Source: a virus
Strand: one strand, 5' to 3'
Length of the DNA: 64,000 bases
IMG/VR virus record: IMGVR_UViG_3300027280_000002
Coordinates: 1 to 64,000 of that record
Part shown: positions 3,200-64,000 of the stretch, in pieces
How the letters are laid out: each line of letters begins with the position of its first letter
Numbering within the stretch: the stretch's first letter is position 1
Program-made: the position numbers and the translations under genes
The notes under the pieces: generated by a model
Seen by the model: the letters and a program-made list of their open reading frames with translations, nothing else
Told to the model about the DNA's origin: nothing
Database searches by the model: none

Positions 3200-6100
3200 T
3201 TAGTTTATTGACTTCTTTAATAACATCAGAAGATTTAATTTGAGTATGACATTCGAACTGTCTTTCTGTACCCTTATGTAAAGGGCACCAGTTCCAATCA
3301 CCTTTATCAAATTTAAATTCAGCTTTGTTCCAACATCCGTTGCACACTGCTGGATTTGTTATTCTGTGACATTTAAATTCATGATCTTCTGAGGTAAAGT
3401 TAGATATCATTATTACTTGTTTTTCAAGGGCCCAAGCTAACCAACTTAGTCCACTAGATAATCCTATAAAGAACTCACTCTGTCTTATACAATCAATTGT
3501 ATACTCAATAGATGTATCTGATATTTTTTCACAATTATCAAAAGGGTTATCTTCTATAGAAGTGTTAATTATTTTGTAACCTTCTTTGTGTAAAAAGTTT
3601 ATTACATCTTGCCAGCCTTCTCTGGTCCAAAACTTACAACCTGATGTAGAATTAGTAGCTATAGTGACATACTCCTGACCTTCTATAACATTATTAAAGT
3701 TAGATTTAATTTTAGGAGTGAGTTCTTTATATTCTAAACCTAATATATTTGTAGCTGTTTGTTGTAATGGAATTGTGTTTGGTAATTGAGGTTCTTTATT
3801 ATTATCATAGAACCAACCTATCTTGTACATAGCGTAGACATCAGCTACGTCTGATCCTGGCTTAACAAACTCTAAACTTGGATACACATCTTCGAATAAA
3901 AAGTTTTTAAATGTACTGACAGTCACCGTACATTTGTGTTTCTGCTGAAACTCTAAAACATAAGGAATCCATGCAATAGAATCACCTAGAGATGAACTAT
4001 CAAAGGAAATATATACTTTCTTTCCTTCTAAGTTTAACTTCTCATCTAATATAAGTAAGTTGTCTTTATATATTACTGTCCGCCAATCAACGTAATAGGA
4101 TCTATCTAATTTTACCCAATTGTTTACACCTATAACATTATCATAAACTAACTCAGCACCATTATACATCTCTATCTTAAACTTACTTTCAGTAGTTCCT
4201 TTTATATCTATGTATGGACCTAATGCAAAGTCACGATATATATTATAGTTTAATACTTTAGAATGTTTAATCTTCTTAGTCTCTAAAACTTTTGTATAGA
4301 AATCAACATGATTTTTAGTAAAGTTTGAAATACCACTATCTTTACTTACACTCTTTACATCATGAGAGTTGTTTAGCATTGTTTCTAGTTGACTTTTTAT
4401 ATTGACACTGTCTATGTCAGTGATATAGGGAGTAAACATATTTTCATATTGAGGTAGATTTCTTGCAAGGATTGGTAAATGCCAGCTAATTGCTTCTCTA
4501 AGTACTAAAGGGTTGCATTCCCAAGTAGAATTAAACATAAACACATCTGCAGCTAACATAAATTTGTCAACATCATCTCTTTCTCCCCAAACAGTTACAT
4601 TGTTAGGTAAGTCTACCATTAATGGGCCCCAATAGTCTTGAAAGTTACCAGCTTGGTTACCTACAAAATGAAATTCTACATTTGGAAGTTCTCTTGCTAG
4701 AGATATTCCCTCTCCTTGATTCTTACCTTTTGTCCATAATCCAACATTTAAAACATGTTGCTTAGTTACATCTAAGTCTAATTCAAATTTAGCATTTAAC
4801 TTAGATTGCCAATCAAATATTTTTGGATCTATGGGATACTCTATTACTTTCTTTAAAGATTTTGAATTGGAAAAAGTAGTTAAATGATAAGGAGTACAGA
4901 AAGCATAACCATCAGGATGATACACCTTTTCTACGTCTGGTTTAAATGATACATTATGACAGGTTTCAACTATCTTATAAGATCTACAGTTACAATACAA
5001 AGAGTCTACTAATTTTTTATCATCTAAACATTCAGACATTTCATCTATATGTACTAGATCTATACGATTGTCCTTTATGATTTTTTGTAAGTCTGATTCT
5101 CCCTCCCCTAAGGTAAAAAAGTTTGAAACAATATCTTTTATTTTATTCTTTTGTACAACATAGTCATTGCTATAATTTTTATGTTCTACTACAAAGATCT
5201 CGTATTCATATTTGAGTGCTTCTATTCTCTTTAAAAGAAATGCAGGCATGCCACCAGTAGAAAGATGGGGTGCTAAAAATAAAATCCTACGTTTAAATTG
5301 ATTCATTGTTGCTTCCATAAACTTTGGACGCTTTTCTCCATGTAATGCTAATAGTTCTTCTTTTTTAGCAGGTAACCTTACCCACTCATCTAAGTATTGA
5401 GTCTCTCCAGTAAAAGGTAAATCATGTGTATCTACAAATTTGCTATAGTTCATGTACATATAAGGTAAACCTTCAGTAATTTCATGATGCCAAAGTAATA
5501 TATTAGCTAAGGTTTCTTCATGATATGGTGCATAGTATTGAGGGTTCTTTAACACTTTGGGGTGATTGCACATCCACTCCCATTCATCTAAGAAATCCAT
5601 ACAAAGATTTGATGCTACGAAATAGCCTGTTTGATGGTAAGATGATCGATTAGATTGATCTATACCAAATAACTCACATGCTGGATGCTCTAAACTTTTA
5701 TGTAACTCTTCTTTTGTTTCTACTCCTCCTCTTCTATTAATAAATAGATAATCATATATACCTTTTACAAAATATGGGTTACTGGATGTATTAGGAAAAT
5801 AGCTAAATATTGAATCTATATAAGGGGTGACTACTGTATCTGAGTCAATGTAGGCAATAGTGTCAGCATAATTATTTAAAGCATGTTTAACAATAGACGG
5901 CCTTTGAATAAGTAACTTGTACACTCTACTATCGTTACGATCTATGTAGTCAGTTTGTTTAATAGTGGATCCTGTATAGGTCCATTTATGTGTAATTGTA
6001 GCACCTTCTACGTCTCGATTATCATTTAATAGATATACTATAACAGGAAGTTTACTAACTTGATTTATAGACTTAACTGCAGCAGATACAGTATGATAAT

Positions 6101-6644
6101 ATGAACTATTTGCATATAAAACATATGCCTTTTCCATCTTCTCCTTTTTATAAATATAGTATCCGTAGTATTGATTAGAGTATATAGAAACAAGTTTAGG
6201 GTATCGACTTTTCATTACCTCAGGAGTTAAGTCAACTTGGTGATGTGTTTCATAAATGTTACCTTCATGCTCACCTTGTTCCATTTTATAAGGAACAGCT
6301 ACTAAACATTCTTTTCCTAAATCAATTATTTTTTCAATTAGATCCACTGCTTCTTTCTCAGGTATGTGTTCTAAAACATCTCCTAGAATAATAAAGTCAT
6401 AATCTTTTATACTAAAGTTTAATATGTCTTCTACATATACGTTATCATACTTCTCAAGAAGGTCATACTTAGCTATATACGGTTCATATATTTCTACAGC
6501 ATCTATGTGATAGCCAGATTCACGAAGTAAGTTTGAGTAAGTTCCAACTCCAGGACCTACATCAAGTACTCTTTTGTGTGTTGGAATGTTATCTTTTACC
6601 CAGTTAGTAACATCATTCTTAAAAAACTCAAAGCTATATGGCAT
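3171..6644 (-). CDS. Multidomain methyltransferase / glycosyltransferase with C-terminal iron-finger O-heptosyltransferase-like domain
   Basis: This 1157-residue protein has four recognisable parts. Residues 1-150 are a class I SAM methyltransferase (motif I LDVGPGVGTY). Residues 165-450 are a GT-A type glycosyltransferase with a DSD metal motif (YIDSDTVV). Residues 455-800 are a GT-B/GT4-like domain (LSTGGMPAF, then NVGLWTKGKNQ, then WECNPLVLREA). Residues 870-1157 resemble the bacterial autotransporter heptosyltransferase family (TibC/Aah): a GT9-like fold with SSLGDSIAWIPY, then four cysteines (about C1101, C1104, C1120, C1132) in CNGCW, NWCPLH and FECHTQI. Those cysteines form the iron finger in that family, whose members attach heptose to Ser/Thr. 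I chose the ATG at 6644 rather than an upstream TTG at 6665, because the TTG lies in a promoter-like TATATTTG. Domains are clear; the substrate is unknown. Confidence 0.85.
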   Translation of the reverse strand: MPYSFEFFKNDVTNWVKDNIPTHKRVLDVGPGVGTYSNLLRESGYHIDAVEIYEPYIAKYDLLEKYDNVYVEDILNFSIKDYDFIILGDVLEHIPEKEAVDLIEKIIDLGKECLVAVPYKMEQGEHEGNIYETHHQVDLTPEVMKSRYPKLVSIYSNQYYGYYIYKKEKMEKAYVLYANSSYYHTVSAAVKSINQVSKLPVIVYLLNDNRDVEGATITHKWTYTGSTIKQTDYIDRNDSRVYKLLIQRPSIVKHALNNYADTIAYIDSDTVVTPYIDSIFSYFPNTSSNPYFVKGIYDYLFINRRGGVETKEELHKSLEHPACELFGIDQSNRSSYHQTGYFVASNLCMDFLDEWEWMCNHPKVLKNPQYYAPYHEETLANILLWHHEITEGLPYMYMNYSKFVDTHDLPFTGETQYLDEWVRLPAKKEELLALHGEKRPKFMEATMNQFKRRILFLAPHLSTGGMPAFLLKRIEALKYEYEIFVVEHKNYSNDYVVQKNKIKDIVSNFFTLGEGESDLQKIIKDNRIDLVHIDEMSECLDDKKLVDSLYCNCRSYKIVETCHNVSFKPDVEKVYHPDGYAFCTPYHLTTFSNSKSLKKVIEYPIDPKIFDWQSKLNAKFELDLDVTKQHVLNVGLWTKGKNQGEGISLARELPNVEFHFVGNQAGNFQDYWGPLMVDLPNNVTVWGERDDVDKFMLAADVFMFNSTWECNPLVLREAISWHLPILARNLPQYENMFTPYITDIDSVNIKSQLETMLNNSHDVKSVSKDSGISNFTKNHVDFYTKVLETKKIKHSKVLNYNIYRDFALGPYIDIKGTTESKFKIEMYNGAELVYDNVIGVNNWVKLDRSYYVDWRTVIYKDNLLILDEKLNLEGKKVYISFDSSSLGDSIAWIPYVLEFQQKHKCTVTVSTFKNFLFEDVYPSLEFVKPGSDVADVYAMYKIGWFYDNNKEPQLPNTIPLQQTATNILGLEYKELTPKIKSNFNNVIEGQEYVTIATNSTSGCKFWTREGWQDVINFLHKEGYKIINTSIEDNPFDNCEKISDTSIEYTIDCIRQSEFFIGLSSGLSWLAWALEKQVIMISNFTSEDHEFKCHRITNPAVCNGCWNKAEFKFDKGDWNWCPLHKGTERQFECHTQIKSSDVIKEVNKLITLRLYEQH

Positions 6645-6662
6645 ACTATTTGATTTTAATAA

Positions 6663-6670
6663 CAAATATA
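6663..6670 (-). promoter_or_regulatory. Bacteroidota-type -7 box for the multidomain glycosyltransferase gene
   Basis: On the minus strand this reads TATATTTG, matching the TAnnTTTG -7 element of Bacteroidota promoters. It lies 19 bases before the ATG at 6644, so the leader would be very short. No good TTTG -33 element is seen at the expected distance. Confidence 0.45.
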
Positions 6671-8584: not shown

Positions 8585-8592
8585 TATTTTTG
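8585..8592 (+). promoter_or_regulatory. Bacteroidota-type -7 box for the tag/glycosyltransferase unit
   Basis: TATTTTTG matches TAnnTTTG and lies 20 bases before the ATG at 8612, in the 105-base gap after the lysis cassette. No TTTG is seen 19-21 bases upstream. The gap shows nothing else beyond a weak GTTA/TAAC hairpin near 8515. Confidence 0.4.
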
Positions 8593-8611
8593 TATTATAA
8601 AAACATATATC

Positions 8612-8749
8612 ATGGCAATACCACCAAGACAGCAAGGCTGGGGACAAGTAGAAGTTCTTCTTTGGAATATTTCAAAGCAATTAGAGCGATTGATTCAGGT
8701 GACTGGTGCACAAAACACCACCACCACTACAACAACAGCAGCACCGTAA
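8612..8749 (+). CDS. 45-residue heptathreonine-tag protein
   Basis: A very small protein with an N-terminal Pro/Gln/Gly segment (MAIPPRQQGWGQ), one amphipathic helix (VEVLLWNISKQLERLIQVTG) and a C-terminal tail of exactly seven Thr followed by Ala-Ala-Pro. The Thr codons are mixed (ACC, ACT, ACA), so the run is kept as protein rather than as a DNA microsatellite. It is the first gene of a unit that continues with a glycosyltransferase and a second tag protein. The helix may dock on a virion or enzyme partner, with the tail as a glycosylation target. Function is unknown; that it is a real gene is likely from the conserved tail. Confidence 0.7.
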   Translation: MAIPPRQQGWGQVEVLLWNISKQLERLIQVTGAQNTTTTTTTAAP

Positions 8750-8776
8750 TAGTAAACATAAACCAACAACTACATA

Positions 8777-9796
8777 ATGAAAGATTTAAAATTTATCTGT
8801 GCTCAACCAGACGACACTTACTATACATGGCAAGTTCACATGTGGTTAGAGAGCTTAAAAGAAATAGGACAAATACACAATGCAATCGTATTAGTCTATA
8901 CACCACAGAAAAGACTCTTTAATGATAAATGGGATCAGATAACAAAACTGTATCCAGAAGCTGAGTTTAATTTCTATAAAGATGAACAAGGTGATCTATC
9001 TAATCTTATTGGTATTTATATACCTGTACTAAGACCTTGGTTACTTTGGAAATACTGGTCAGACCGTCCAGAAATGTCAGAACATGCTGTATTTTACTGT
9101 GATTCTGATATACTTTGGACAGATAAATTTAATATTGATGAATACATACAAGATGATGTATGTTATCTTTCAGATACTAATAGTTACATAAACGCTCAGT
9201 ATTTTGATAGTAAAGTGCATCAGGTTTTACCTGAAAAGTTAGAAGAGTATAAAGCTAGAGATGTGCTTTCTGAAATAGGAAGTGTAATAGGCATAAGTAG
9301 ACAACTTGCTGAAGATAATAATGAAAACTCAGGAGGTGCTCAGTATCTTCTTAAAAATGTAGATGTTTCTTTTTGGAGTAAGGTTATGAATGATTGTATA
9401 TTAATCAGGACCTACCTTCAAAAAATAAATAGAGAATTCTTTAAAGATGAAAATGCTGGTTATCAAAGTTGGTGTGCAGATATGTGGTCTGTATTATGGA
9501 ATCTTTGGGTAAAAGATCAAGAAACTAAAGTAATACCAGAAATGGGATTTGCTTGGGGCCCAGATCCATTAACTAAATTGGAGACACATCCTATATACCA
9601 CAATGCTGGCATTGTAGCAACAGAACAAGGTGGATATCCTTGTTTTTATAAAGGTAAATATCACTCAGGGACTAATCCTATGACTGATCCTCACTTAGAT
9701 GTTGTGTTAAACAACGAAAAAAGTATGAAGCATTGTACTGGTTACTATGCTAAAAAATTGAATGAATTAAAAATTAAATATAACCTAATTTACTAA
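8777..9796 (+). CDS. GT-A fold glycosyltransferase between two tag-protein genes
   Basis: A 339-residue protein. A DSD metal-binding motif (FYCDSDILW, about residues 113-121) follows an N-terminal nucleotide-sugar fold. Later conserved patches are ENSGGAQYLL (about residue 188), a Trp-rich segment (WCADMWSVLWNLW) and HNAGI (about residue 272). The pattern resembles GT families that act on peptidyl or small hydroxylated acceptors, but I could not assign a family number. It lies 27 bases after one heptathreonine-tag gene and 18 bases before another, which suggests those tail Thr residues as its acceptors. The enzyme class is confident; the acceptor is inferred. Confidence 0.78.
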   Translation: MKDLKFICAQPDDTYYTWQVHMWLESLKEIGQIHNAIVLVYTPQKRLFNDKWDQITKLYPEAEFNFYKDEQGDLSNLIGIYIPVLRPWLLWKYWSDRPEMSEHAVFYCDSDILWTDKFNIDEYIQDDVCYLSDTNSYINAQYFDSKVHQVLPEKLEEYKARDVLSEIGSVIGISRQLAEDNNENSGGAQYLLKNVDVSFWSKVMNDCILIRTYLQKINREFFKDENAGYQSWCADMWSVLWNLWVKDQETKVIPEMGFAWGPDPLTKLETHPIYHNAGIVATEQGGYPCFYKGKYHSGTNPMTDPHLDVVLNNEKSMKHCTGYYAKKLNELKIKYNLIY

Positions 9797-9814
9797 CCCT
9801 TTAAATATAAACAA

Positions 9815-10021
9815 ATGGGAAGCATAGACAAACGTCCATTAAAAGCTTTTGTTAGATTCGATGGATCTGGCAGAGTAGTAGCAGGTAGCTTAATCTTACG
9901 TAGGAAAATACCAAAAGTAGGAAACTGGCAAGAAATTGTAGCATACGAGTGTTGCAATCCAACAACTACTACTACTACTACAGCTGCGCCAACAACCACT
10001 ACCACTACTACAGCTGCGTAA
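9815..10021 (+). CDS. 68-residue double heptathreonine-tag protein
   Basis: The N-terminal 48 residues form a small basic beta-like domain (KAFVRFDGSGRVV, then GSLILRRKIPKVGNW, then a Cys pair in YECCNP). The C-terminus is two copies of seven Thr plus Ala-Ala, joined by Pro. Each block is exactly seven Thr with mixed codons. It is the last gene of the tag/glycosyltransferase unit and is followed by a hairpin. The N-terminal domain could be a virion-binding head, with the tail exposed outside. It was not recognised as a known family. Confidence 0.75.
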   Translation: MGSIDKRPLKAFVRFDGSGRVVAGSLILRRKIPKVGNWQEIVAYECCNPTTTTTTTAAPTTTTTTTAA

Positions 10022-10040
10022 ACTAAATTAACCTATATAT

Positions 10041-10067
10041 CTCAAGGATCCAATTAAGGTCCTTGAG
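10041..10067 (+). terminator. Hairpin after the tag/glycosyltransferase unit
   Basis: CTCAAGGA and TCCTTGAG form a perfect 8-bp stem, with a further CC/GG pair possible inside. The following bases are T/A-rich (TTATGTATATATT) rather than a pure U-run, so termination strength is uncertain. Confidence 0.55.
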
Positions 10068-10085
10068 TTATGTATATATTACACA

Positions 10086-10707: not shown

Positions 10708-10890
10708 ATGCCTGTAAAAAAAGCTAAGGGAGGGAAGAAAATGATTAAACGTAAGGATGGATCCTATAGCAAAAGAGGGCTATGGGATAACATCCGTGCG
10801 AATAAAGGTAGTGGTAAAAAGCCCACTAAAGCTATGTTAAAGCAAGAAAAAAAGATTAAAGCTAAGAGTAAGAGGGGCAAGAGAAAATAA
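10708..10890 (+). CDS. Lysine-rich basic protein 1
   Basis: A 60-residue, strongly basic protein (over a third Lys plus Arg). The central segment RGLWDNIRANKGSGKKPTK and the following MLKQEKKIK recur, as far as I recall, in small basic proteins of many Bacteroidota phages. It is the first of four consecutive Lys-rich genes. Binding to DNA or RNA in the capsid or cell is the simplest inference; there is no enzyme motif. Confidence 0.65.
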   Translation: MPVKKAKGGKKMIKRKDGSYSKRGLWDNIRANKGSGKKPTKAMLKQEKKIKAKSKRGKRK

Positions 10891-10893
10891 ATT

Positions 10894-11028
10894 ATGAAAG
10901 ATAATAATTATTGTACTACAACAGCCTCACAATGTTCATGTGGACAAAGTCAAGATCCCAATGGTTACTGTGATGGTTCTCACCTACAAGTAAACACTGT
11001 TGAGCATGCCCACATTAAAAAAAGCTAA
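10894..11028 (+). CDS. 44-residue CDGSH-type iron-sulfur-like protein
   Basis: Too short for routine gene calls but clearly patterned: C14-S-C16, then S-Q-D-P and C26-D-G-S-H30. This is the three-Cys, one-His ligand set of CDGSH (mitoNEET-type) 2Fe-2S proteins, with one extra residue before the third Cys compared with the usual spacing. The ATG is 3 bases after the previous stop. The C-terminus overlaps the next gene by 23 bases. If functional it would be one of the smallest such domains. It could instead bind zinc. It lies inside the lysine-rich cluster. Confidence 0.6.
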   Translation: MKDNNYCTTTASQCSCGQSQDPNGYCDGSHLQVNTVEHAHIKKS

Positions 11029-11191
11029 AAAAGGCACTAAGAGTAAAAACTGGATACAAGGTGTAAATAAGTCTATCAAGAAAAGAGGGACTAAAGGAAA
11101 ATGCACACCAATCACTAAGAAAGGTTGTACCGGTAAAGCTAAAGCTCTTGCAAAGACATTTAAAAAAATGGCTAAAGGTCGCAAGAAATAA
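11006..11191 (+). CDS. Lysine-rich basic protein 2
   Basis: A 61-residue, highly basic protein with two Cys (KCTPITKKGCTGKA). I chose the ATG at 11006 over a TTG six bases upstream, because the sequence then begins MPTLKKAKK, like its neighbours. It overlaps the CDGSH gene end. It shares short KAKKGTK and GCTGKAKAL-type patches with the neighbouring basic proteins, suggesting local duplication. It is probably a nucleic-acid-binding or packaged protein. Confidence 0.6.
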   Translation: MPTLKKAKKGTKSKNWIQGVNKSIKKRGTKGKCTPITKKGCTGKAKALAKTFKKMAKGRKK

Positions 11192-11193
11192 TT

Positions 11194-11490
11194 ATGGCTA
11201 GAAAGAAAACAAAAGCAATTCGTAAGACCACTGGTAAAGGTGGTAACTATAGAAAGACTAAGTCTGGTGCTGGTATGACTAAAAAAGGAGTCAAGGCATA
11301 CAGGAAGGCTAATCCTGGCAGTAAACTCAAGACTGCAGTAACAGGAAAAGTTAAAAAGGGAAGCAAGTCAGCAAAAAGACGTAAGTCTTATTGTGCAAGA
11401 AGTTTGGGACAGTTGAAGAAAAGTTCTGCAAAGACTAAAAATGATCCTAATTCTAGAATAAGACAAGCTAGAAGAAGGTGGAAATGTTAA
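11194..11490 (+). CDS. Lysine-rich basic protein 3 (DUF6321-like)
   Basis: A 98-residue basic protein. The segment GAGMTKKGVKAYRKANPGSK followed by LKTAVTGKVKKGSKSAKRRKSYCARS resembles a small basic family seen in many phages, which I recall as DUF6321. It ends in an Arg-rich patch (RQARRRWKC). It begins 2 bases after the previous gene. In other phages the role is not established; its charge suggests DNA or RNA binding, possibly inside the virion. Confidence 0.7.
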   Translation: MARKKTKAIRKTTGKGGNYRKTKSGAGMTKKGVKAYRKANPGSKLKTAVTGKVKKGSKSAKRRKSYCARSLGQLKKSSAKTKNDPNSRIRQARRRWKC

Positions 11491-11508
11491 CACTCAAATT
11501 ATATAATT

Positions 11509-11796
11509 ATGATGCGTAAATACAAATCAGGCGGAGCTAAAAAAGCAAAGTCTGGAACTAAAGTAAAAATGGCTAAGTCTGGAACAAAAGCTAAAAAGAT
11601 GGGGTATGGTGGCAAAGCTGCTTCTATGACTCCTCCTAAATCTAAAATGAAGGCTAAGTCTGGTTCTACTCTTAAAAAGGCACCAGCAGGTTCAAAAGGA
11701 AAGGGAATGAGATCTCTTCCTAAAGCTGTTCGTAATAAGATAGGGTTTGCTAAGAAAGGTAGTAAGACACGTAAGTGTAAGTCAGGTTGTAAGTAA
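11509..11796 (+). CDS. Lysine-rich basic protein 4, repetitive
   Basis: A 95-residue protein built from repeats of (A/M)-K-(A/S)-K-S-G-(T/S) (for example KAKSGTKVKMAKSGTKAK), with a Gly/Met-rich middle and a Cys-containing end (TRKCKSGCK). Composition is like H1-type histone tails. It is last in the basic cluster. The 112 bases after it hold no clear gene or strong terminator before the opposite-strand block begins. A role in DNA condensation is inferred only from composition. Confidence 0.6.
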   Translation: MMRKYKSGGAKKAKSGTKVKMAKSGTKAKKMGYGGKAASMTPPKSKMKAKSGSTLKKAPAGSKGKGMRSLPKAVRNKIGFAKKGSKTRKCKSGCK

Positions 11797-12061: not shown

Positions 12062-12706
12062 CTATTTTTTTAATAATCTTCTTTTCCAAGTTGATACGTT
12101 AGACGCATGTTCTAAATAATACTTCCACTCTTCAGGTATACAACAATCATCTATATACCAAGGTCTGTGCTGTATACAATAAGGTCTGTCTAATCTTATT
12201 GCATCATAAGAAAATGGCATATTAGCTCTATATAATGCAAATGTAGTATCTACATGAGCATCCCATCCCAAATCAATTTTATTCTCCCAGTACTTAGCCT
12301 CATGTGCATATGATTGTTTACCTATATCTGTATTGGGTAAGTCTTCTATTTCTAATGAGAACCCTATTTTAGGGGAACCTGGTTGGTTTATAGCATGTAA
12401 CATTACATCTAACCAATCATCAGGAACATTATCATATATACAATCTGTATCCGCTACAATAAAATAACCTTTACGTAAATGTTTATACTTAGAAGCCCAT
12501 GCTGAGTAAGGACCCTCATTCTTTGCATAGTGAATTTCTTCAGTAATTGTTTTATAAAATTCTAACAATGGAGGATAGGTAGATTCTTGATCAAGTATAT
12601 GAATCTCTACTCTAGGCTCTTTTCTTAAGAACTCTAATGTATTTTTAAGAGTAGTCAAAAGATTCCTATTAATTAGTAGTGCCTTTATTTTGCTAGTTGT
12701 GTACAA
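12062..12706 (-). CDS. GT-A type glycosyltransferase-like protein
   Basis: A 214-residue protein with a short Rossmann-like start (IKALLINRNLLTTLKNTLEF), a DTD metal motif (FIVADTDCIYD, about residues 84-94) and a C-terminal acidic/aromatic patch (PWYIDDCCIPEEW) that may hold the acceptor site. It overlaps the next upstream glycosyltransferase gene by 14 bases. Three such genes lie in a row (12062-14049), suggesting stepwise building of one glycan. It is short for family 2 enzymes but retains the donor-site core. Donor and acceptor are unknown. Confidence 0.7.
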   Translation of the reverse strand: MYTTSKIKALLINRNLLTTLKNTLEFLRKEPRVEIHILDQESTYPPLLEFYKTITEEIHYAKNEGPYSAWASKYKHLRKGYFIVADTDCIYDNVPDDWLDVMLHAINQPGSPKIGFSLEIEDLPNTDIGKQSYAHEAKYWENKIDLGWDAHVDTTFALYRANMPFSYDAIRLDRPYCIQHRPWYIDDCCIPEEWKYYLEHASNVSTWKRRLLKK

Positions 12707-13265
12707 ATAAAACTTTATTTATTTTAAACATTTCTTTTTCTGTAAACTTCTTTTTAAACTGTTCTACAAACCAACCGTCAGCATCATATTTTACTCCAAG
12801 ATCTATTTGCTGAGCTAAGTCTCTTCTAGTAGCAAAAGCTCCCATATCTATTTGATTAGTGTGAGGGTGACATTTAAAGTATTCATAATTATAATGAGAG
12901 TGTACCATATCCCAATAAATAAACCCAGGAGAGTTAGCTGTTGCTGTTCGTAATTCAGCAACAAAGTTTGGTGTATAGTAGTTATCATCTCCAGTCATTA
13001 TTATATATTGAGCATCTGACATTTGTTTACCACGCTCTCTTAATGTATGTCCCCAATCATTATACCGCTTATCCATAAAGGTGCAATATATTCTAGGGTC
13101 ATTGAAACTCTTTACTATATCAGATATTCTTTCACTTTCTGTATCATCTATAACCACATGAGCGCTCCAGTCAGCATCTGTTTGAGCTGTAAGAGAAGTT
13201 AGCATGCAGATTAAAGGCTCATGCCTATTATATGTAGGAATAATAAACTCAACTAGAGCTGACAT
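12693..13265 (-). CDS. Family 2-like glycosyltransferase
   Basis: A 190-residue GT2-type protein. It has the N-terminal FIIPTYNRHEPL strand-loop, a VIDD loop near residue 39 and a GDDN metal-site motif (MTGDDNYYTPNF, about residues 90-101). It lacks the long C-terminal acceptor domain of full-length enzymes. It overlaps both neighbouring glycosyltransferase genes. It probably transfers a sugar to a phage or host glycan; the target is not shown by the sequence. Confidence 0.8.
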   Translation of the reverse strand: MSALVEFIIPTYNRHEPLICMLTSLTAQTDADWSAHVVIDDTESERISDIVKSFNDPRIYCTFMDKRYNDWGHTLRERGKQMSDAQYIIMTGDDNYYTPNFVAELRTATANSPGFIYWDMVHSHYNYEYFKCHPHTNQIDMGAFATRRDLAQQIDLGVKYDADGWFVEQFKKKFTEKEMFKINKVLFVHN

Positions 13266-14049
13266 AATCTTTTAGCATTTGTTTATAATCCTGTTTCCAT
13301 GAAGGCACTAAATGTACATCACCTGTAGGTATCTTACCAGCTTTACGCTGTGATTCTACATGAGCACTATGACGTTTAATGATATCAGGTCTTGATCCAT
13401 CATCTGTACCCATACCGGATTGATGATAACCTCTACCTCCCCACATATAAAACCACGAAGCTTCACTGTCCGGCATCTTAACATCTACTTTACCACCTAA
13501 AGCATGGATTCTATTAGTTAAGGTCATGTCACCTCCTGCGTTCTCTAGAGGACTTTTACCTATTCTTTCCCATACATCTTTACTATATACAATACCAGAG
13601 TTACCTACACCACTTATAGCTGTAATAGATGGCTCATTGTAGAACACACCTGTTTCCCAGTGAATAATATTAGTATCCTTCTTCCAGTGTCTAGCTACGT
13701 TGTTTAGATGATTAGGTAAGGCCACATCATCATCATCCCATACAGCAATAAGCTCCCCTTTGCATCTTTCAATAGCATAGTTCTCTTTCTCACCTATAAG
13801 AGAAAAAGTTTCATCAAGATTATATATTGTGACTTGTGGATGAGGATAGTGTAACTTCTGAAGAGGGTAATCATTGACTATTATTAGCTCGCACTTATCT
13901 TTTGGATAGTCTTGAATAAGGAAACTATGTAAAGATTCTACTAATAAATCTGTTCTTCCATAAGTTATACACTTACAAGAAATAAAAGGCAACTCTTTGT
14001 TTTCTATAACATGAGCTGCCTCTGTTCCTGATATTATTTCATAACTCAT
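13249..14049 (-). CDS. Family 2 glycosyltransferase
   Basis: A 266-residue GT2 enzyme: N-terminal ISCKCITYGRTDLL, then IIVNDYP, the metal-binding VWDDDDVALP and a C-terminal Trp/Gly-rich patch (FYMWGGRGYHQSG). The start is taken at the ATG at 14049, which overlaps the stop of the GroES-like gene (TAATG), rather than at a TTG two codons upstream. It is first of the three-gene glycosyltransferase run. The enzyme class is confident; the substrate is unknown. Confidence 0.85.
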   Translation of the reverse strand: MSYEIISGTEAAHVIENKELPFISCKCITYGRTDLLVESLHSFLIQDYPKDKCELIIVNDYPLQKLHYPHPQVTIYNLDETFSLIGEKENYAIERCKGELIAVWDDDDVALPNHLNNVARHWKKDTNIIHWETGVFYNEPSITAISGVGNSGIVYSKDVWERIGKSPLENAGGDMTLTNRIHALGGKVDVKMPDSEASWFYMWGGRGYHQSGMGTDDGSRPDIIKRHSAHVESQRKAGKIPTGDVHLVPSWKQDYKQMLKDYVSSS

Positions 14050-51928: not shown

Positions 51929-53494
51929 ATGGCAATTCAAACAATCCCAGGTTTAACTGGTTTTACTTATGCACGAGTAGCGTCTATGGATGCACGTGCT
52001 GTAGGTAAACTTACAGATTCAAACCACTTAGAGTCTTTTCACTCTACTGAGCCTGCAGATTATGATAAAAAGATTATCAGTCTGTATACTCAATCTTCAT
52101 TGTATAGCAATGATTTCCTAGACATGATCAATAAGAGTACACCTTACTATATTGATACAAACAGTGATTCATGGAAATGGAACATTGCAGTACCTTACAA
52201 ATTCCCAAAAATTATTGACATTCCTAAATCTACGCAAGATACTATTGCTGCTACAGGTAAAGTAGGAATCGATGGACAAGAGTTCGAATTAATATTGAGT
52301 TCTAACGAATTCTCTAAGAATGCGATTATTTCTGTTGGTACACGTCAGTACGGACCACGTTTTTACGTGATCAAAGATCCACAACCATGGAACATGGGAT
52401 GGATATATAAATTTACACTTGTTAGTGATAACCCAACAGTAGATTTCGTTAATACTACATTTTTAACACAAGGTGTTGAATTAGAATTAGTAGATGCTGC
52501 AATTGGAGAATTCGATCAAGATTTATTAGGTCTTCCAAGATTAGGTGAAGAGATCACTATGTTTGAATCATTAGGTTCTGCATATGGATATGAGCACAAA
52601 ATTACGGAATGGGCTGATGATAAAATGTTAAGAGACTCTTCTGGGAAACCATTAGATATTTTAGTATATGCACCACAACGACGTAATCAACTTCCTTTAA
52701 GAAGAGAAGATGTTAAGTGGGAGCCGTTCATTGAATTCTGGATGCGTAAATCTATGTTAGAATTAAAAGTTAAACGTATGATCTGGGCTTCTCCAGGTAC
52801 AGTTAAGACTAATGGTTCTAAGCAAGAAGTAAAAAGAACTTCTGCTGGTGTATACCACAGAATGAGAAATAACGGAAACTTAGTACAATACAATAGAGGT
52901 GAATTCTCTGCAAACTTGATTCGTTCAGTATTTGGAGATTTATTCTACAGAAGAGTGGATGTTAAAGACCGTAGAGTTAAGATGTATACTAATGAGGCTG
53001 GATTCGATGTATTCCAACAAGCTCTTAAGAATGATGCACTTAATTCTGGACTTACTTTCATGGCAGATTCTGGAAACAGATATATGCAAGGTGAAGGACA
53101 GAATATCACTTATAACTTTGCATTTGACGCAATGGTTACAAGAGAAACAGGTCGTGTTGAATTGATTCACTTAAAAGAACTTGATTTACCACAAACTAAT
53201 TTAGAATTTGGACAAAACATGAAATCTACTCCAGTATTTATGGTGTTTGATGTTTCTCCACTATCTGATGGTGCAATGGTAAACAATATCCGTGAAGTTC
53301 GTATGAAGGGTGCACCTTCTATGACATGGGGTTATATTGATGGTACTCGTTCCCACTTAGGCTTTGCAAAGTCTCAAGGAATGCAGTCTGCTAACAAATT
53401 CCCAGGTTATGAATTATGGATGAAAGATCGATGTGATGTATTCATTGAAGATTTATCAAGAACTGTACTTATAGAAGAAATTCCACAGTTCTAG
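51929..53494 (+). CDS. Major capsid protein
   Basis: A 521-residue protein located after the scaffold gene. The N-terminal 60 residues look like an arm, followed by a long beta-rich body with YKFPKIIDIPKST and IKDPQPWNMGW, and a C-terminal MTWGYIDGTRSHLGFAKSQG. Size and layout recall the HK97-fold capsid proteins of crAss-like and flavobacterial podoviruses. Two hairpins follow the gene. Its codon usage includes more G/C-ended codons than most neighbours, as expected for high expression. Confidence 0.85.
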   Translation: MAIQTIPGLTGFTYARVASMDARAVGKLTDSNHLESFHSTEPADYDKKIISLYTQSSLYSNDFLDMINKSTPYYIDTNSDSWKWNIAVPYKFPKIIDIPKSTQDTIAATGKVGIDGQEFELILSSNEFSKNAIISVGTRQYGPRFYVIKDPQPWNMGWIYKFTLVSDNPTVDFVNTTFLTQGVELELVDAAIGEFDQDLLGLPRLGEEITMFESLGSAYGYEHKITEWADDKMLRDSSGKPLDILVYAPQRRNQLPLRREDVKWEPFIEFWMRKSMLELKVKRMIWASPGTVKTNGSKQEVKRTSAGVYHRMRNNGNLVQYNRGEFSANLIRSVFGDLFYRRVDVKDRRVKMYTNEAGFDVFQQALKNDALNSGLTFMADSGNRYMQGEGQNITYNFAFDAMVTRETGRVELIHLKELDLPQTNLEFGQNMKSTPVFMVFDVSPLSDGAMVNNIREVRMKGAPSMTWGYIDGTRSHLGFAKSQGMQSANKFPGYELWMKDRCDVFIEDLSRTVLIEEIPQF

Positions 53495-55404: not shown

Positions 55405-56541
55405 ATGAGTACATTCGCATTAACCACGTTATTCGTGGTGCCAGTAGGTCAGACAACTCTGCCTAGCACTGGTTCGACTCAAGACCTTACAAAAGGTCAA
55501 GTAGGATTTTTCAATAGCTCCTATGCTACAGTAAACGCTGGAACAATAGCTGCTTCTCCGTATTTCTACGTAGCACAAGGTAGAGAAAACACCTATTTAC
55601 AAGGATCAAAAAGATCTGACAAAATTAAAGGATGCCCAACAGCTGGTGCTTCTTGCAACTCTAACGTTACAGAATGGTACAAAGCTTCTGGTTGTGATAC
55701 TGCTGCTAACCAAATTACTGACGTTACAGACTTTAAAGTACAATGTGGTGAAATAGTAACATTAACACTACGTGCTTTTTCTAGTTATATTAATACTTTA
55801 TACTTCAACGGATTTACACGTTCAGTAACCGTACAAGCTCCATGTTGTGAATGTGGAGGTGATGTATGTACTGATGTTGACACTAACGCATTAATCAACT
55901 CTTTAATTGCTAAGTTAAACCAAAGCGCTCCTGGAGATAATCCAGATAACGTATCTTTTAAAAGTTTCTTTACTTTTGAAAATGTTGGTGGAACAATACT
56001 AAGAATCCACGGTAAACCATTAACTAAATATGGACAACCATGTGACGTTGCTGCATTCCCATTTGAATATGATAGAATGTACTTCAACACATTTATATAT
56101 GATGGACCAGCTACTACTGCTGATTTTATTGTTGCTGATTCTTGTAACATTGTTGCAACCTCTACCATAACTCAGACTTCTACATATCCTTCAGGACTTT
56201 CTGCTGAATGGAAACAAGCAGAAATTAATTACTATAGCTACCAAGCTGGGTATTTAAAATCTCTATATAGAATGGGTGGATACAACGAGAACTTTGAGTC
56301 TTATGTGACTGAAGGAACTGTATATGATAGCTACTATATTCGTTTTAATGAATATGATAAAGGAGCATACCAATGGGGTGACTATATCCATCAAGATTCT
56401 ATCGTGATGATTGCTGTCCCAAATGAAGCGTCAGTTGCTGGTATTGCTACTGCTGTAGAGGCTGTCTTAGTTGGAGCTTTAGGGCCTGTTGTTGATAACA
56501 ATGAGTGTATCACAACTACAACTACTACAACTGCTGCTTAA
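55405..56541 (+). CDS. Virion structural protein with C-terminal heptathreonine tag
   Basis: A 378-residue protein, Thr/Tyr-rich and probably beta-structured (for example SSYINTLYFNGFTRSVTVQA, then a Cys-rich CCECGGDVCTD). Candidates are tail tube or a decoration protein. The C-terminus is exactly seven Thr followed by two Ala, identical in form to the tags on the 8612 and 9815 products. A strong terminator follows, so it ends the head/connector unit. The tag on a long structural protein places the tags on the virion. Confidence 0.7.
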   Translation: MSTFALTTLFVVPVGQTTLPSTGSTQDLTKGQVGFFNSSYATVNAGTIAASPYFYVAQGRENTYLQGSKRSDKIKGCPTAGASCNSNVTEWYKASGCDTAANQITDVTDFKVQCGEIVTLTLRAFSSYINTLYFNGFTRSVTVQAPCCECGGDVCTDVDTNALINSLIAKLNQSAPGDNPDNVSFKSFFTFENVGGTILRIHGKPLTKYGQPCDVAAFPFEYDRMYFNTFIYDGPATTADFIVADSCNIVATSTITQTSTYPSGLSAEWKQAEINYYSYQAGYLKSLYRMGGYNENFESYVTEGTVYDSYYIRFNEYDKGAYQWGDYIHQDSIVMIAVPNEASVAGIATAVEAVLVGALGPVVDNNECITTTTTTTAA

Positions 56542-57317: not shown

Positions 57318-60300
57318 ATGTTATCACCAAGACTAACGAATTGTAAAGAATGTGCAAACATTCCTGATTTACTTAGAAAAATAGATTGTAAATTAGCAGA
57401 GCTAGGAAACAACTTATACAACAATGTTGTATTTATGTTGAACAGACCTATTGCTGTTAGTCAGATTTCAGAACTGTTAGTATACAAACGTGTACTAACT
57501 TTTCGTTATTGTGATACACATTATGCATCAGGATGTCCGGAGGTAAGTACAGAAGATATTGCAAGCAAGGTTATTCGTCTTACTGCTGGTTGTGTTTCAT
57601 TATGTAATGAACCTACAGTGTGTGAGATTACAACATGTGCTATAATTCCTTGTCCTAATCCAACAACAACAACTACAAGTACCTCTAGTACCAGCACTAC
57701 TACAACCACTAGCACCACAGCAACACCAACCACCACCACTACTACAACGATAACCCCAGATTGTAGAATAGAAGGATGCTTTGATATTATAGCTTTATCT
57801 ACTACAACTACTTCAACATCTTCAACATCTTCGACTACTACTACTAGTACAACTGTTGTACCGTTTGATTGTGCAGAGCCATTTAACTTAAGTTCTCCTG
57901 AAGCCTTTCCTAATGCTATCACTGGAAATGGAACTAAAGTATTGAGTAATGGAGTTTTGCTAACTACATCGTATACTCCAAATACGTTTAACCAACCTCC
58001 TATCTATGTAGCTGGCGTCCCAGGCACAACAGAAGTATGTAATGGAGCATATGTAACTTCTCAGTCTGGTGGACAAGGAACATTGTCAATGCGTGGAGGT
58101 TCAACTGTTGTAATGGACTTTAATCCTCCAATAAATGCTATAGCGCTTGTCACTCAGGGTTATGGTTCTAGTAAAGATCCATCAGCGCAAGAGACTGTGG
58201 TTATAACATCTACTGATGTAATTGTTGCTACTGAATTAACAGCATGTGGTGACTATGCAACAACACAAATAAGTCAAAATGAAATTAATTTAACTGGATC
58301 ACAAGCTCTTTATCCAAACTATTCTGCAGGAGTTACAGCAATTTCACCAATTAGTGGAGGTATAAGTCAATTACAAATTACAATTAACCCACCTGCTGAT
58401 GCATTAGCTGGTATTGGTTTTGATTTTTATGTATGTCCTGGCAGTAGTCCAATAACTACGACAACAACTAGCACGTCTAGTACAACTACTACTACAACAA
58501 GTAGTTCAACTAGTACAACTACTAGTACGACTACAATTGTACCAACAACAACTACAACTACAACAATTGCTGCATGTGTGGATTGTATTCCTAGTGATGT
58601 AACAATTGGAACACAAACCTGGAGTAAGTGTAATTTAAATGTTGATACATATTTAAATGGTGATCCAATTCCAGAAGTAACAGACCCAAGTGCTTGGGTA
58701 GGATTAACTACAGGAGCTTGGTGTTACCATAGCAATGATTCTGCAAATGAACCAACTTATGGAAAATTATATAATTGGTTTGCTGTTAATGATCCAAGAG
58801 GGTTAGCTCCTGCAGGTTATCATATTCCAACTAATGATGAACTAATTACATTAATTAATTATATTGACCCAGCTTCATCAGGAGGTGCAACTGTACCAAA
58901 TAATGCAGGAGGTCCATTAAAAGAAGTACAATTCTGTCATTGGGATGCACCTAATACTGCAGCAACAAATAGTTCAGGTTTCACAGGTCTTCCAGGAGGT
59001 TTTCGTGAGCCTCTCTCTGGGGTGTTTGGTGGTATTAATGAGGGTGGTACATGGTGGAGTAGTACAGACGAGATAGTAGGGCCTGATGCTTTTGCTTTTA
59101 GTTTATACAATAATCAGACTTGGGCGTATAGAAATGACTGGAATCAAAATCACGGTTATTCAGTTCGTCTAATAAAAGATACAGGAACTACAACAACCAC
59201 CACTTTAGCACCAACAACCACTACAACTAGTACATCTAGTACATCAACTACAACTAGTACAACAACTGTTGCTCCTACTACAACTAGTACAACAACTGTT
59301 GCTCCTACTACCACTACTACAACTACAGTGGTGGCACCAACAACAACTACAACCACAACGGTAACACCTACTACAACTACAACAACAACTATTACACCAC
59401 TAGTTGGATGTCTAGAGTTTGACTATTTAAGTCTTATAGTTAGTAGCGATTGGATTCTAGATCCACCTACTGACTCTCTATTTGCTCGAGCAGATTATTT
59501 TACAGGACCAACTACAAACACAACAAGTTATACCAACTGGTCTCAAGTTCCAAATACCAACTATGATGTAGTATTTAATATAGGAGGAGTAGACTATACA
59601 GCAGTGTATCAATTTATCAATGTTGGAACTGGAGGAGTTACTGTTCCTTATGGTAAATTTAGTGTTAACAGTGTCAACTTCTCAGCTATGTCTACATTCC
59701 AATTTTCAAAGATAGATGCAAATGGTAATGACTTATCATCAATACTTTCTACCTTTGATCATACAACTGGAGATGGTTATAAAGTTACTGCATATGGAGA
59801 TTGTACAACACCAACAACAACAACTACAACCACTGTAGCTCCAACAACAACAACTACAACCACCTTACCTGTTTTCCTTTGTACAGATCCACTACTAACA
59901 GTATCTTTACCTGATGGAATTGTAGGAGATCCACTGAATGGAAGTGTTGTATATGATGGACTCAATCTAGCTATAACTGGTTACACTTATGGTGGGGGTA
60001 ATACAACTGTATATATTGCTGGAACAGTTGCTTATACGCTTGCATTTATTGTTCCTTCAGGATATAGTAACTCAGGATCTGCTACTGGTTGCGCTGTTGC
60101 AGCAACTGGTACAACACCAACAACTACAACTACAACAACTGTTGCTCCTACTACTACAACTACAACCACTAGTGCAAAAAGCTACGATATTAATTGGCAA
60201 GTTGATGGAGGAGGAAATGGATTTAAAGAAGCAGAATTACAATTATTTAAAAATGGAGCGAGTGTAGTAACTCAAGTTATTACTAATGGCACGCCTTCGG

Positions 60301-60920
60301 TACAAGGATTGTTTTCAAGTTCTAACGGTGATGTTATTAATGCTAAACTTACTACTAAGAACTTAACAAGTGAAGAGACTCAAGTGCAGAATAGTTTTTC
60401 ATTGATAGGAGCAGGAGGTGGAGGTCTGCAAGAATTAGATACAGGTATACTACAACCACCTGCTGGTGGAGTCACAAATTCACTTGCGACTAGTTTTAGT
60501 ACTGGATATACTCAACCTGGTGTTACTAATGGTCCTTTATTATTATTTAAAGTAAATCAAGAACAAATAGCATCATCTGAAATTACTATGTCGCTTACTA
60601 ATAACGGTGCTAATTTTAACTTTGAAATAGAAGATAATGATCAGCCAGGTGATCCTGTAGTATTGAGTATACCAACAACTGGTCCACTTTGGAATGGTAA
60701 TTATTATTATGACTTCTTAGTTGGTAGAGAATATACAGTTACATTTCCATATTCAAACAACGAAGTTGGAGGTGTATCTACTGAACTAGTTATAAGCGGT
60801 GGTGGAATGACACCATTTAGCGATCAGGTGGATAATCCTTCTGGTTCAGTAAACACTATAACCCATACATTTACAGTATTAAATGCTACATCAATAGTAA
60901 TTGAAGCATTTGAATATTAA
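57318..60920 (+). CDS. Large modular adhesin with FISUMP domain and heptathreonine joints
   Basis: A 1200-residue protein. Residues 1-115 are a Cys-rich N-terminal domain. Thr/Ser-rich joints then separate several beta-rich modules: about 180-370, the FISUMP domain at about 418-621 (TIGTQTWSKCNL, then YGKLYNWFAV, GYHIPTNDEL, FTGLPGGFRE, WWSSTDE, YSVRLIKD), about 695-830, about 855-930 and 950-1200. Nine joints contain exactly seven Thr, mostly as P-T7-(V/I)-(A/T)-P. FISUMP is a lectin-like fold known from Bacteroidota and Fibrobacter surface proteins. Probably a receptor-binding tail protein whose joints are stiff, glycosylated spacers. Confidence 0.8.
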   Translation: MLSPRLTNCKECANIPDLLRKIDCKLAELGNNLYNNVVFMLNRPIAVSQISELLVYKRVLTFRYCDTHYASGCPEVSTEDIASKVIRLTAGCVSLCNEPTVCEITTCAIIPCPNPTTTTTSTSSTSTTTTTSTTATPTTTTTTTITPDCRIEGCFDIIALSTTTTSTSSTSSTTTTSTTVVPFDCAEPFNLSSPEAFPNAITGNGTKVLSNGVLLTTSYTPNTFNQPPIYVAGVPGTTEVCNGAYVTSQSGGQGTLSMRGGSTVVMDFNPPINAIALVTQGYGSSKDPSAQETVVITSTDVIVATELTACGDYATTQISQNEINLTGSQALYPNYSAGVTAISPISGGISQLQITINPPADALAGIGFDFYVCPGSSPITTTTTSTSSTTTTTTSSSTSTTTSTTTIVPTTTTTTTIAACVDCIPSDVTIGTQTWSKCNLNVDTYLNGDPIPEVTDPSAWVGLTTGAWCYHSNDSANEPTYGKLYNWFAVNDPRGLAPAGYHIPTNDELITLINYIDPASSGGATVPNNAGGPLKEVQFCHWDAPNTAATNSSGFTGLPGGFREPLSGVFGGINEGGTWWSSTDEIVGPDAFAFSLYNNQTWAYRNDWNQNHGYSVRLIKDTGTTTTTTLAPTTTTTSTSSTSTTTSTTTVAPTTTSTTTVAPTTTTTTTVVAPTTTTTTTVTPTTTTTTTITPLVGCLEFDYLSLIVSSDWILDPPTDSLFARADYFTGPTTNTTSYTNWSQVPNTNYDVVFNIGGVDYTAVYQFINVGTGGVTVPYGKFSVNSVNFSAMSTFQFSKIDANGNDLSSILSTFDHTTGDGYKVTAYGDCTTPTTTTTTTVAPTTTTTTTLPVFLCTDPLLTVSLPDGIVGDPLNGSVVYDGLNLAITGYTYGGGNTTVYIAGTVAYTLAFIVPSGYSNSGSATGCAVAATGTTPTTTTTTTVAPTTTTTTTSAKSYDINWQVDGGGNGFKEAELQLFKNGASVVTQVITNGTPSVQGLFSSSNGDVINAKLTTKNLTSEETQVQNSFSLIGAGGGGLQELDTGILQPPAGGVTNSLATSFSTGYTQPGVTNGPLLLFKVNQEQIASSEITMSLTNNGANFNFEIEDNDQPGDPVVLSIPTTGPLWNGNYYYDFLVGREYTVTFPYSNNEVGGVSTELVISGGGMTPFSDQVDNPSGSVNTITHTFTVLNATSIVIEAFEY
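59274..59399 (+). repeat. Tandem heptathreonine spacer repeats
   Basis: Four consecutive units of Pro plus seven residues (one T3-S-T3, three T7) with V-A-P, V-V-A-P, V-T-P and I-T-P links. DNA copies differ at synonymous positions (ACA, ACT, ACC, ACG), so they are protein-level repeats, not a simple DNA microsatellite. Confidence 0.8.
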
Positions 60921-62037: not shown

Positions 62038-62349
62038 ATGGCATACTTACCTGTAAATCCTTGTTGCACAGATGTAGTTTCAAACACTCCTTGTGGATGT
62101 TCAAGCACTACAAGCAATAATCCTTGTGCAACTGGGGTACATTATTCAAAGTCTATTACATACAATGGACCTGTATTACCTTGTTCAAATGTGCAACCTT
62201 GTGATGATTTAAACATTGCTTTGTCTAAAATTGACGCAATTATTTGTACATTGGTAAACCAACAAGCAATCAATACATCTGAAATTGCTACTATAAAGCA
62301 GCAAGTAATAAGTATAAATCAAACATTAACAACTTGTTGTGACTCATAA
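62038..62349 (+). CDS. Cys-rich small tail protein
   Basis: A 103-residue protein with many Cys (NPCCTDVVSNTPCGC, VQPCDDLNIALSKIDAIIC, TTCCDS) and a helical middle (DDLNIALSKIDAIICTLV) with an Asn/Ile heptad (TSEIATIKQQVISINQTL). Its N-terminal pattern resembles the Cys-rich N-terminal domains of the neighbouring fibre genes, perhaps for docking. It shares its last base with the next gene start. Confidence 0.55.
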   Translation: MAYLPVNPCCTDVVSNTPCGCSSTTSNNPCATGVHYSKSITYNGPVLPCSNVQPCDDLNIALSKIDAIICTLVNQQAINTSEIATIKQQVISINQTLTTCCDS

Positions 62350-62597
62350 TGGAAGCAATCTTAACACTAAATACAGCAGGAAATAATACTGGATCTTTTA
62401 ATCTGTTTTCAGACGTAGATGGATTTAGTGTTGCTTTTCAAACAAATGTAACTAAAACCCAGTTATTGAATGGGTATACAGCTGTGATGCCTGATTACAC
62501 TACTATAGTAAAAGTAGCATCAGGTTCAGTTTGTAAAAATAGTATTGAGATAACACTAGAACAAACAACCACAACAACCACCACAATAACACCGTAG
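62349..62597 (+). CDS. Heptathreonine-tag stub protein, paralogue of the next gene's N-terminus
   Basis: An 82-residue protein. The first 70 residues (LNTAGNNTGSFNLFSDVDGF, then FQTNVTKTQLLNGYTA) align with the first 70 of the next gene product. It ends in seven Thr plus I-T-P, exactly the joint sequence used in the adhesins, but stops there. It therefore looks like a docking domain that ends at its tag. Start overlaps the previous stop (TAATGG). Confidence 0.75.
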   Translation: MEAILTLNTAGNNTGSFNLFSDVDGFSVAFQTNVTKTQLLNGYTAVMPDYTTIVKVASGSVCKNSIEITLEQTTTTTTTITP

Positions 62598-62601
62598 GAC
62601 A

Positions 62602-64000
62602 ATGACAATACTTATAACATTAACTTTAGCAGGCATAGATACAGGTCCATTTGATCTATATTCTGATGCAGATAATTATCAAAATGCATTTGAGACTAAT
62701 GTTTCCAGACAAGATCTATTGAATGGTTACACTTCTAATAATGCCCCTGTTGGAACTACTACTGTTAGGTTAGATAGTACAAATCAGACTTGCGGTTCAG
62801 TGGATATATATTCTTGTGTTAGACCAAATTGTGATTTTACAGGAGAGATAATTTGTGATATTACAACAACTACAACCAGTACATCTTCATCTTCAACTAC
62901 AACTACTACTACTACATCAAGTGGACCTGGACCAATTACTTCACTATGTCTTTGGTCAACTCTTAACGAAGGAACCTCCGGAGAACTAGGAGTATATAAT
63001 ATAGACACCAATGTAGTAACTACAGTATTAGTTCCTAATGACTTTTTAGTAACCCAAGGTGTAACTAGACCTATATGTAGTACACAAAATAAACTTTGGT
63101 TAGCTAGTGAAACAGACCTTACCCAGAACAACTTTATAATTAGAGAATATGATGTAACTTTTACATCAGGTAATGTAGGTTTATCTTTTACAAGAGACAT
63201 TACTGTTAGCACACAAGGTATCCTATCATACCCTGGTTATTCTAGAGTTGGTTCTGAATGTACGGCACTAACTGCTATTAATGATACAAGTATAATAATA
63301 GTTTTTGGTGGACCAACTGCTACTGTTATTTCACCAGATGTATGGGGTTTTACTATTGATATAAGTCAAACAGGTAATATTGCTAAAAATCTAACATCTA
63401 GTATTGGAAGAACTGTTAAACCTGTAATAAATACCTATGGTAAGGTTGTTTCAAACCCTAGACTACTATATCTTAATAACGGTGATGTTATTACTAGTAT
63501 GAGGATGGATGGCGAAGTTGATGGTCCTTATAATGGGAATTATCTACAACAATACAACATTTCAAATAATGATCGTATAACTGGAACTATGAAGTTGCAG
63601 GATTTAGGCATTCCAGAATTTACCGTTAATTACACTTCTGAGAAATATATAGATATATTCTCAATAAATAGTAAATTATATGCTCTTCAACCAGAATTAA
63701 ATAGAGTATATGAAATATCACAAACTCCTGACTACCAACAACAATCATCAAATCTTGTAGGTACAAATGTAAAAAGTTTATCTACAACTAGTGGTTGTGC
63801 AGATATTACCCTTTATGCAGAACCAGAATGTGAATCTACTACAATACCTAATATGTACGACCAAGCAGGAGATGTGTACATAGGTCCAGTACCGTTTACG
63901 TATGCAGGTGTGACTGTTATGGCTAGTAGTACACTTGCTGCTGGATCTAACGGAATTGTTGGTACTGGTGGAGGGGTGACACTATATAAGTTGTGCGCTT
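62602..64000 (+). CDS. Adhesin with tag-joint, 3' end outside window
   Basis: The frame is open from the ATG at 62602 to the window end (466 codons). The N-terminal 70 residues (LTLAGIDTGPFDLYSDADNY, then FETNVSRQDLLNGYT) match the stub gene just before. A Thr/Ser joint (T5, S-T-S4, T7, SSGPG) follows at about residues 90-115. The rest has repeating beta segments with LWSTLNEGTSGELGVYNIDT and SLSTTSGCADITLY, like a propeller or fibre domain. It is likely an appendage protein using the same docking domain as the stub. Confidence 0.75.
   Translation, partial: MTILITLTLAGIDTGPFDLYSDADNYQNAFETNVSRQDLLNGYTSNNAPVGTTTVRLDSTNQTCGSVDIYSCVRPNCDFTGEIICDITTTTTSTSSSSTTTTTTTSSGPGPITSLCLWSTLNEGTSGELGVYNIDTNVVTTVLVPNDFLVTQGVTRPICSTQNKLWLASETDLTQNNFIIREYDVTFTSGNVGLSFTRDITVSTQGILSYPGYSRVGSECTALTAINDTSIIIVFGGPTATVISPDVWGFTIDISQTGNIAKNLTSSIGRTVKPVINTYGKVVSNPRLLYLNNGDVITSMRMDGEVDGPYNGNYLQQYNISNNDRITGTMKLQDLGIPEFTVNYTSEKYIDIFSINSKLYALQPELNRVYEISQTPDYQQQSSNLVGTNVKSLSTTSGCADITLYAEPECESTTIPNMYDQAGDVYIGPVPFTYAGVTVMASSTLAAGSNGIVGTGGGVTLYKLCA

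Follow-up and report, generated by a model that had tools for sequence, protein, structure and literature searches.

A glycosyltransferase gene flanked by threonine-run tags in a crAss-like phage, and comparative support for putative O-glycosylation of phage virions

The DNA analysed here (hereafter, the window) is a stretch of 64,000 nucleotides, positions 1 to 64,000 of IMG/VR record IMGVR_UViG_3300027280_000002. The source record is 111,329 bp long and represents a crAss-like virus, as identified by its major capsid protein (Crass_capsid; Table 1), its portal (phrog_6547) and its terminase (phrog_6681). Three consecutive plus-strand genes form the locus of interest: a 45-residue protein ending in a threonine-run tag (C-terminal end NTTTTTTTAAP), a predicted glycosyltransferase (GT), and a 68-residue protein carrying two tags (C-terminal end NPTTTTTTTAAPTTTTTTTAA; Table 1). 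The tag–enzyme–tag order given in a preliminary description of this DNA is thus real in the window. Tags also occur elsewhere in the record, outside the window, while a threonine run was looked for in the window's own major capsid protein and none was found.

Table 1. Features of the locus and of the structural region, in window coordinates.
Feature	Coordinates	Strand	Remarks
Promoter-like TAnnTTTG box	8585..8592	+	TATTTTTG; 20 nt ahead of first tag gene; doubtful
45-aa tagged protein	8612..8749	+	Anchor-like N-terminal module MAIPPRQQGWGQVEVLLWNISKQLERL; single C-terminal T7 tag (8717-8746)
339-aa predicted GT-A glycosyltransferase	8777..9796	+	Retaining, GT8-like; PHROG 4417 / "prophage pi2 protein 34" family
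68-aa tagged protein	9815..10021	+	Small beta N-terminal module (KAFVRFDGSGRVVAGSLIL..PKVGNWQEI..CCN); two T7 tags (9959-10018)
Hairpin	10041..10067	+	Stable; no U-tract
Major capsid protein, crAss-like	51929..53494	+	Pfam Crass_capsid, E 1.2e-32
378-aa protein of the structural cassette	55405..56541	+	C-terminal tag TTTTTTTAA (56512-56538)
1200-aa modular protein	57318..60920	+	Domains (one Fib_succ_major) linked by many T-run tags
82-aa protein	62349..62597	+	C-terminal tag TTTTTTTITP
921-aa tagged protein	62602..64000	+	Start only in window; continues to 65367

The preliminary description had also framed these genes as a self-contained unit running from a promoter to a terminator, and here it was not borne out. 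The TAnnTTTG motif occurs in the window at chance frequency (96 observed vs. 94.6 expected), and the copy ahead of the first tag gene is kept in the window and in three of the six relatives aligned with it. The hairpin beyond the 68-residue protein is stable (-18.8 kcal/mol over 10030-10085, z -5.4), yet four close relatives (L010, L011, L013, L014) have other sequence in its place. With a box no more frequent than chance, and a hairpin that has no U-tract and is missing from these relatives, neither signal supports the role proposed for it, and the self-contained unit is not supported.

Several further genes surround the locus. On the minus strand at 3171-6665 lies a 1164-residue fusion of methyltransferase, GT group 1 and GT9-like (heptosyltransferase) domains, which may have a role in glycan extension. 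A series of short, Lys-rich, strongly basic ORFs (60, 63, 98 and 95 residues; 10708-11796) are candidate DNA-binding proteins, and three GT2-type genes follow in succession on the minus strand at a strand switch (12062-14055).

The middle gene of the locus is well predicted, by fold and motifs, to encode a retaining GT-A, GT8-like glycosyltransferase. Its product matches phrog_4417 (E 1.6e-51; residues 4-329 of 339, profile positions 1-289 of 293), a family whose function is annotated as unknown. A Pfam scan of the protein returned nothing at the family cut-off and no Glyco_transf_8 (GT8) match, the weak Pfam matches across 26 members of the family included no glycosyltransferase, and sequence searches of solved structures with the enzyme, its profile and the tagged major capsid and major tail proteins (MCPs and MTPs) gave no useful match. 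Across 55 diverse relatives, however, D109, D111, G187-A188-Q189, Q230, H275, G278, F290 and K292 are invariant. These include the catalytic DxD (D109xD111) and an H275xxG278 element, with the invariant K292 (F290xK292) more distant than in the classical HxxGxxK metal/donor motif. An AlphaFold2 model built on the 55-relative alignment (pLDDT 95.9, pTM 0.92) was compared with the PDB by Foldseek, in which glycogenin (GT8) ranked first (E 9.6e-7; TM 0.66 by target and 0.50 by query, i.e., a moderate similarity to GT8), followed by WbbM, UGGT, XXYLT1 and alpha-1,3-galactosyltransferase; the same five enzymes account for the best 50 of the 122 fold matches at E <= 0.001. These are mostly retaining GT-A enzymes. 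Together, model and ranking make the GT-A fold class well predicted. Glycogenin, which likewise glycosylates protein, shares with the phage enzyme the GT-A fold, the DxD and the C-terminal HxxG region; the two nevertheless differ in sequence (about 11% identity), in addition to the moderate TM by query and the missing Pfam family. Bacterial homologs of the enzyme (Chitinophaga, Sphingobacterium and others; L088-L095) share 25-39% identity with it and lie mostly within longer proteins (479-829 residues), mostly without tags.

The small proteins on either side of the enzyme look like virion-anchoring modules with a tag as cargo, which would place them in the virion. The N-terminal module of the 45-residue protein was found in 83 distinct proteins of near relatives, 60 of them tagged; its untagged carriers have collagen-like or other C-terminal domains instead. 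Relatives keep the family of the 68-residue protein on the downstream side of the GT (an alignment of 39 rows), and most members consist of a beta N-terminal module followed by one to four tags; in the window's own protein the N-terminal strands are predicted with pLDDT 85-88. The anchor module (MAIPxRQIGWxxxxNLLWxISKQLxxL) was also seen to start several different proteins within one phage (loci L005-L084 and L173-L188; e.g., L031 3048-5075 and L066 5165-5812), with collagen-like repeats, other domains or tags as the cargo behind it—an arrangement that looks like a plug-in display system with exchangeable cargo. The 45-residue protein has, in addition, a weak N-terminal match (E 0.011) to phrog_33732, a family named glycosyltransferase, and proteins in which anchor and GT are fused may exist.

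The tags themselves are remarkably uniform in length. Among 306 runs of four or more threonines in near relatives, 171 have exactly seven, a sharp peak, and only 1 of the 236 runs of at least six uses a single Thr codon, the rest using two or more. A length peak at seven together with mixed codons argues for selection on the protein, and not for a DNA repeat or slippage. The typical tag is thus a run of seven threonines, often in a 10-residue T7-xAP unit, with T6-7-KP in Firmicutes phages; the joiners are xAP in Bacteroidota-type phages and KP or VKP in the Firmicutes set. Tags often stand at the extreme C-terminus of a protein, where they cannot be linkers. The C-terminal tag of the 378-residue protein is kept in 79 of 80 relatives, and this protein and the three other tagged proteins of the structural region (Table 1) are likely substrates of the GT that are not linked to its gene. 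Two departures from the typical form were noted: in LP65 (L112), whose GT is the most divergent (20.7% identity), the protein before the GT has TTTETQTQTQ repeats, and in ENFP1 (L098) the tag is (TTVAP)n, which suggests that the sequence of the tag changes along with the enzyme.

The preliminary description had proposed that conservation of the gene order in related phages be examined, and in such phages the order is kept. A scan of IMG/VR yielded 274 relatives, and the neighbourhood of the GT was read in 80 loci. Where the GT has 1.5 kb or more of flank on each side (69 loci), a tag ORF lies within 1.5 kb upstream in 62, downstream in 66, on both sides in 59 and on neither side in none. Two further scans gave 56 GT clusters at 70% identity. 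In 41 of the 56 clusters, the GT is preceded by a tag ORF whose end lies no more than 400 bp away, as opposed to 2 of 62 control genes (p about 1e-16), the controls being other genes of the same loci and numbering only 62; an initial tag definition of 10/12 S/T was dropped because it missed single T7 tags. Tag ORF and GT lie close together, with a median gap of 30 nt and no more than 70 nt between them in 37 of the 41 clusters. The 14 clusters in which no typical tag adjoins the GT include some with a tag elsewhere or with other Thr motifs. When nine of the upstream tagged proteins were scanned against PHROGs, four matched, to families that include a virion structural protein and a major tail protein.

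This adjacency reaches well beyond crAss-like phages. Full-length matches to the GT numbered 74 when 50,697 phage records were searched by tblastn; almost all belong to phages of Firmicutes, and Chryseobacterium phage MA9V-3 is also among them. In phiFL1A, the genes for GT and MTP overlap at the stop codon of the latter, whose product ends in a Thr/Ser-run tail (TTTTTSTTTTTTSSTTTTTTTQASSK); Thr tails were likewise found on the MTPs of 1706 and bIL285, on the MCP of 4995_1, on both MCP and MTP of PLE3 and R9.1, and, in Semele, on an Ig-like protein near the GT, and Staphylococcus phages show a similar arrangement of GT and Thr tail. Tag and GT are, then, adjacent in phages of different bacterial phyla. 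In three phages (SA2, PT1-4 and TPWB06), the tail proteins stop at CCC.TAA (L111 ~2190-2430, L113 ~1490-1710 and L106 ~2252, respectively), and in two of them, SA2 and PT1-4, a long, multi-tag Thr tail is encoded beyond it in the +1 frame. In phages of the SPP1 type, a +1 frameshift extends the tail tube protein. The arrangement in SA2 and PT1-4 looks like such a frameshift, which would here add tags to a minority of the tail tube protein copies; nothing similar was seen in the window phage.

In Firmicutes phages, tag and enzyme are also gained and lost together. Among homologs of the bIL285 major tail protein—the set to which this comparison was confined, as an alignment of mixed MTPs contained poorly related rows and was dropped—all 11 tagged members have a GT 1.3-2.1 kb upstream, while none of the 35 untagged members has one (31 of these loci have enough flank, and four are too short to inform). 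Among homologs of the 4995_1 MCP, 56 tagged members have the GT and the 13 untagged members, some of them 84-86% identical to a tagged MCP, all lack it; two tagged loci without a GT end 93 bp past the MCP gene and were left out of the verdict. As the GT-positive members are closely related within each set, the two sets represent few independent events. A third comparison used crAss-like records of at least ~97 kb, picked by their MCP or by the 378-residue tagged protein and not by the GT, and found the GT in 11 of 12; genomes of 70-83 kb without a GT were set aside, since their position with respect to the MCP shows that they stop short of the GT region. The exception, G004, is a near-complete crAss-like genome of 99.6 kb in which the tagged virion proteins are kept but a GT of the PHROG 4417 type is missing, the region corresponding to the GT locus being occupied by ~10 kb of other genes. 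Tags can therefore be kept in a phage that lacks this type of enzyme, where they are either left bare or modified by a different enzyme. The preliminary description had named tagged relatives without a GT as evidence against its reading; one such relative exists, lacking this enzyme, and the association otherwise holds. On the sequences at hand, G004 weakens a strict coupling of tag and GT and not the overall association. Adjacency and tag/GT concordance thus point to a phage glycosyltransferase co-encoded with a specific putative virion substrate, and the earlier suggestion of an enzyme beside its Thr-tag substrates finds support, strong on the comparative side, in the order kept among close relatives, in adjacency across phyla, in the MTP and MCP concordance and in the glycogenin-like fold.

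Taken together, the best explanation of these patterns, and a very probable one, resting on comparative genomics and a structural model, is that the GT puts sugar on the Thr tags of virion proteins. It must be weighed against the view that tags serve modular virion proteins simply as hydrophilic, flexible linkers or as points of recombination, with the adjoining GT modifying something else. That view draws on crAss-like phages, where many tags connect domains inside long proteins, on the shuffling of anchor modules among cargos, and on G004. However, the extreme C-terminal tags of the MCP, MTP, 45-residue and 68-residue proteins link nothing, and in both sets tested the MCP and MTP tails match GT presence exactly. 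Moreover, threonine is retained while its codons vary, and a plain linker would not need runs of seven. We therefore regard the linker explanation as improbable.

Phage GTs with roles at the host surface or on DNA are known; phiVPE25, for instance, glycosylates its own DNA, which has been attributed to a gene similar to the T4 beta-glucosyltransferase (PMC4999554). Modification of the host surface (serotype conversion or superinfection exclusion) or of phage DNA, with the location among structural genes being incidental, would nonetheless leave the association with tags unexplained. It also fits poorly with a GT gene that, in phages from several phyla and with either a lytic or a temperate lifestyle, lies among late structural genes at the short median distance behind those that are tagged, and no flippase or membrane partner is annotated beside the GT in the phage loci inspected; we consider such a role very improbable. 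We give equally little credence to a GT that glycosylates virion proteins outside the Thr tags and uses the tag as a docking site: recognition elements can be low-complexity tails, but the tagged proteins are wholly different (capsid, tail tube, Ig-like, small modules) and have the Thr run alone in common.

Virion glycosylation itself is already known. In mycobacteriophages, the nearest known case, glycans are found on the C-termini of capsid and tail-tube subunits, according to the accounts in PMC12619734 and PMC12691614 of work by Freeman et al. (2023, Cell Host Microbe). As given in those accounts, the two systems are alike in involving capsid and tail C-termini and, in the reading proposed here, in modifying the virion and not the DNA. 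They differ in that no mycobacteriophage is among the 74 GT-matching phage records, and in that the MCP and MTP tails of mycobacteriophage Che8 have no Thr run; the present system would operate in a like manner, with a GT8-like enzyme family and a Thr-run tag. Also related are the genes that Firmicutes phages carry under the names PHROG 4417 or "prophage pi2 protein 34", which belong to the same family by profile and often follow MCP or MTP genes, although they are annotated as hypothetical and the records read state no link to tags. In the literature searched, which included few subscription journals, we found no description of poly-Thr tags with a phage GT, and no form of virion glycosylation spanning Bacteroidota and Firmicutes phages; an earlier description is possible.

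Under the proposed tag glycosylation, the middle gene would encode a cytoplasmic, probably metal-dependent, retaining GT-A enzyme of a widespread phage family that moves sugar from a nucleotide-sugar to threonines within the short Thr-run tags that virion proteins carry. Its nearest substrates in the window phage would be the two small tagged proteins that flank it, with the tagged proteins of the structural region as further candidates; in Firmicutes phages, the MCP and MTP would take this place with their C-terminal tails. The virion surface would thereby come to bear many O-linked glycans, and these may shield the particle or tune its contacts with cells or the environment. More tentatively, and with slightly less than even confidence, we suggest that Thr-run tag and GT form a portable O-glycosylation cassette that phages of different phyla have repeatedly attached to their dominant surface proteins, with enzyme and tag co-evolving.

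These data and this conceptual model suggest a likely function and substrate for a large phage protein family (PHROG 4417), and predict glycosylated virions in crAss-like, Enterococcus, Lactobacillus, Lactococcus and Staphylococcus phages. If true, the model would provide an O-glycosylation tag that is short, genetically encoded and accompanied by a dedicated enzyme, and would bear on how phages are shielded and recognized.
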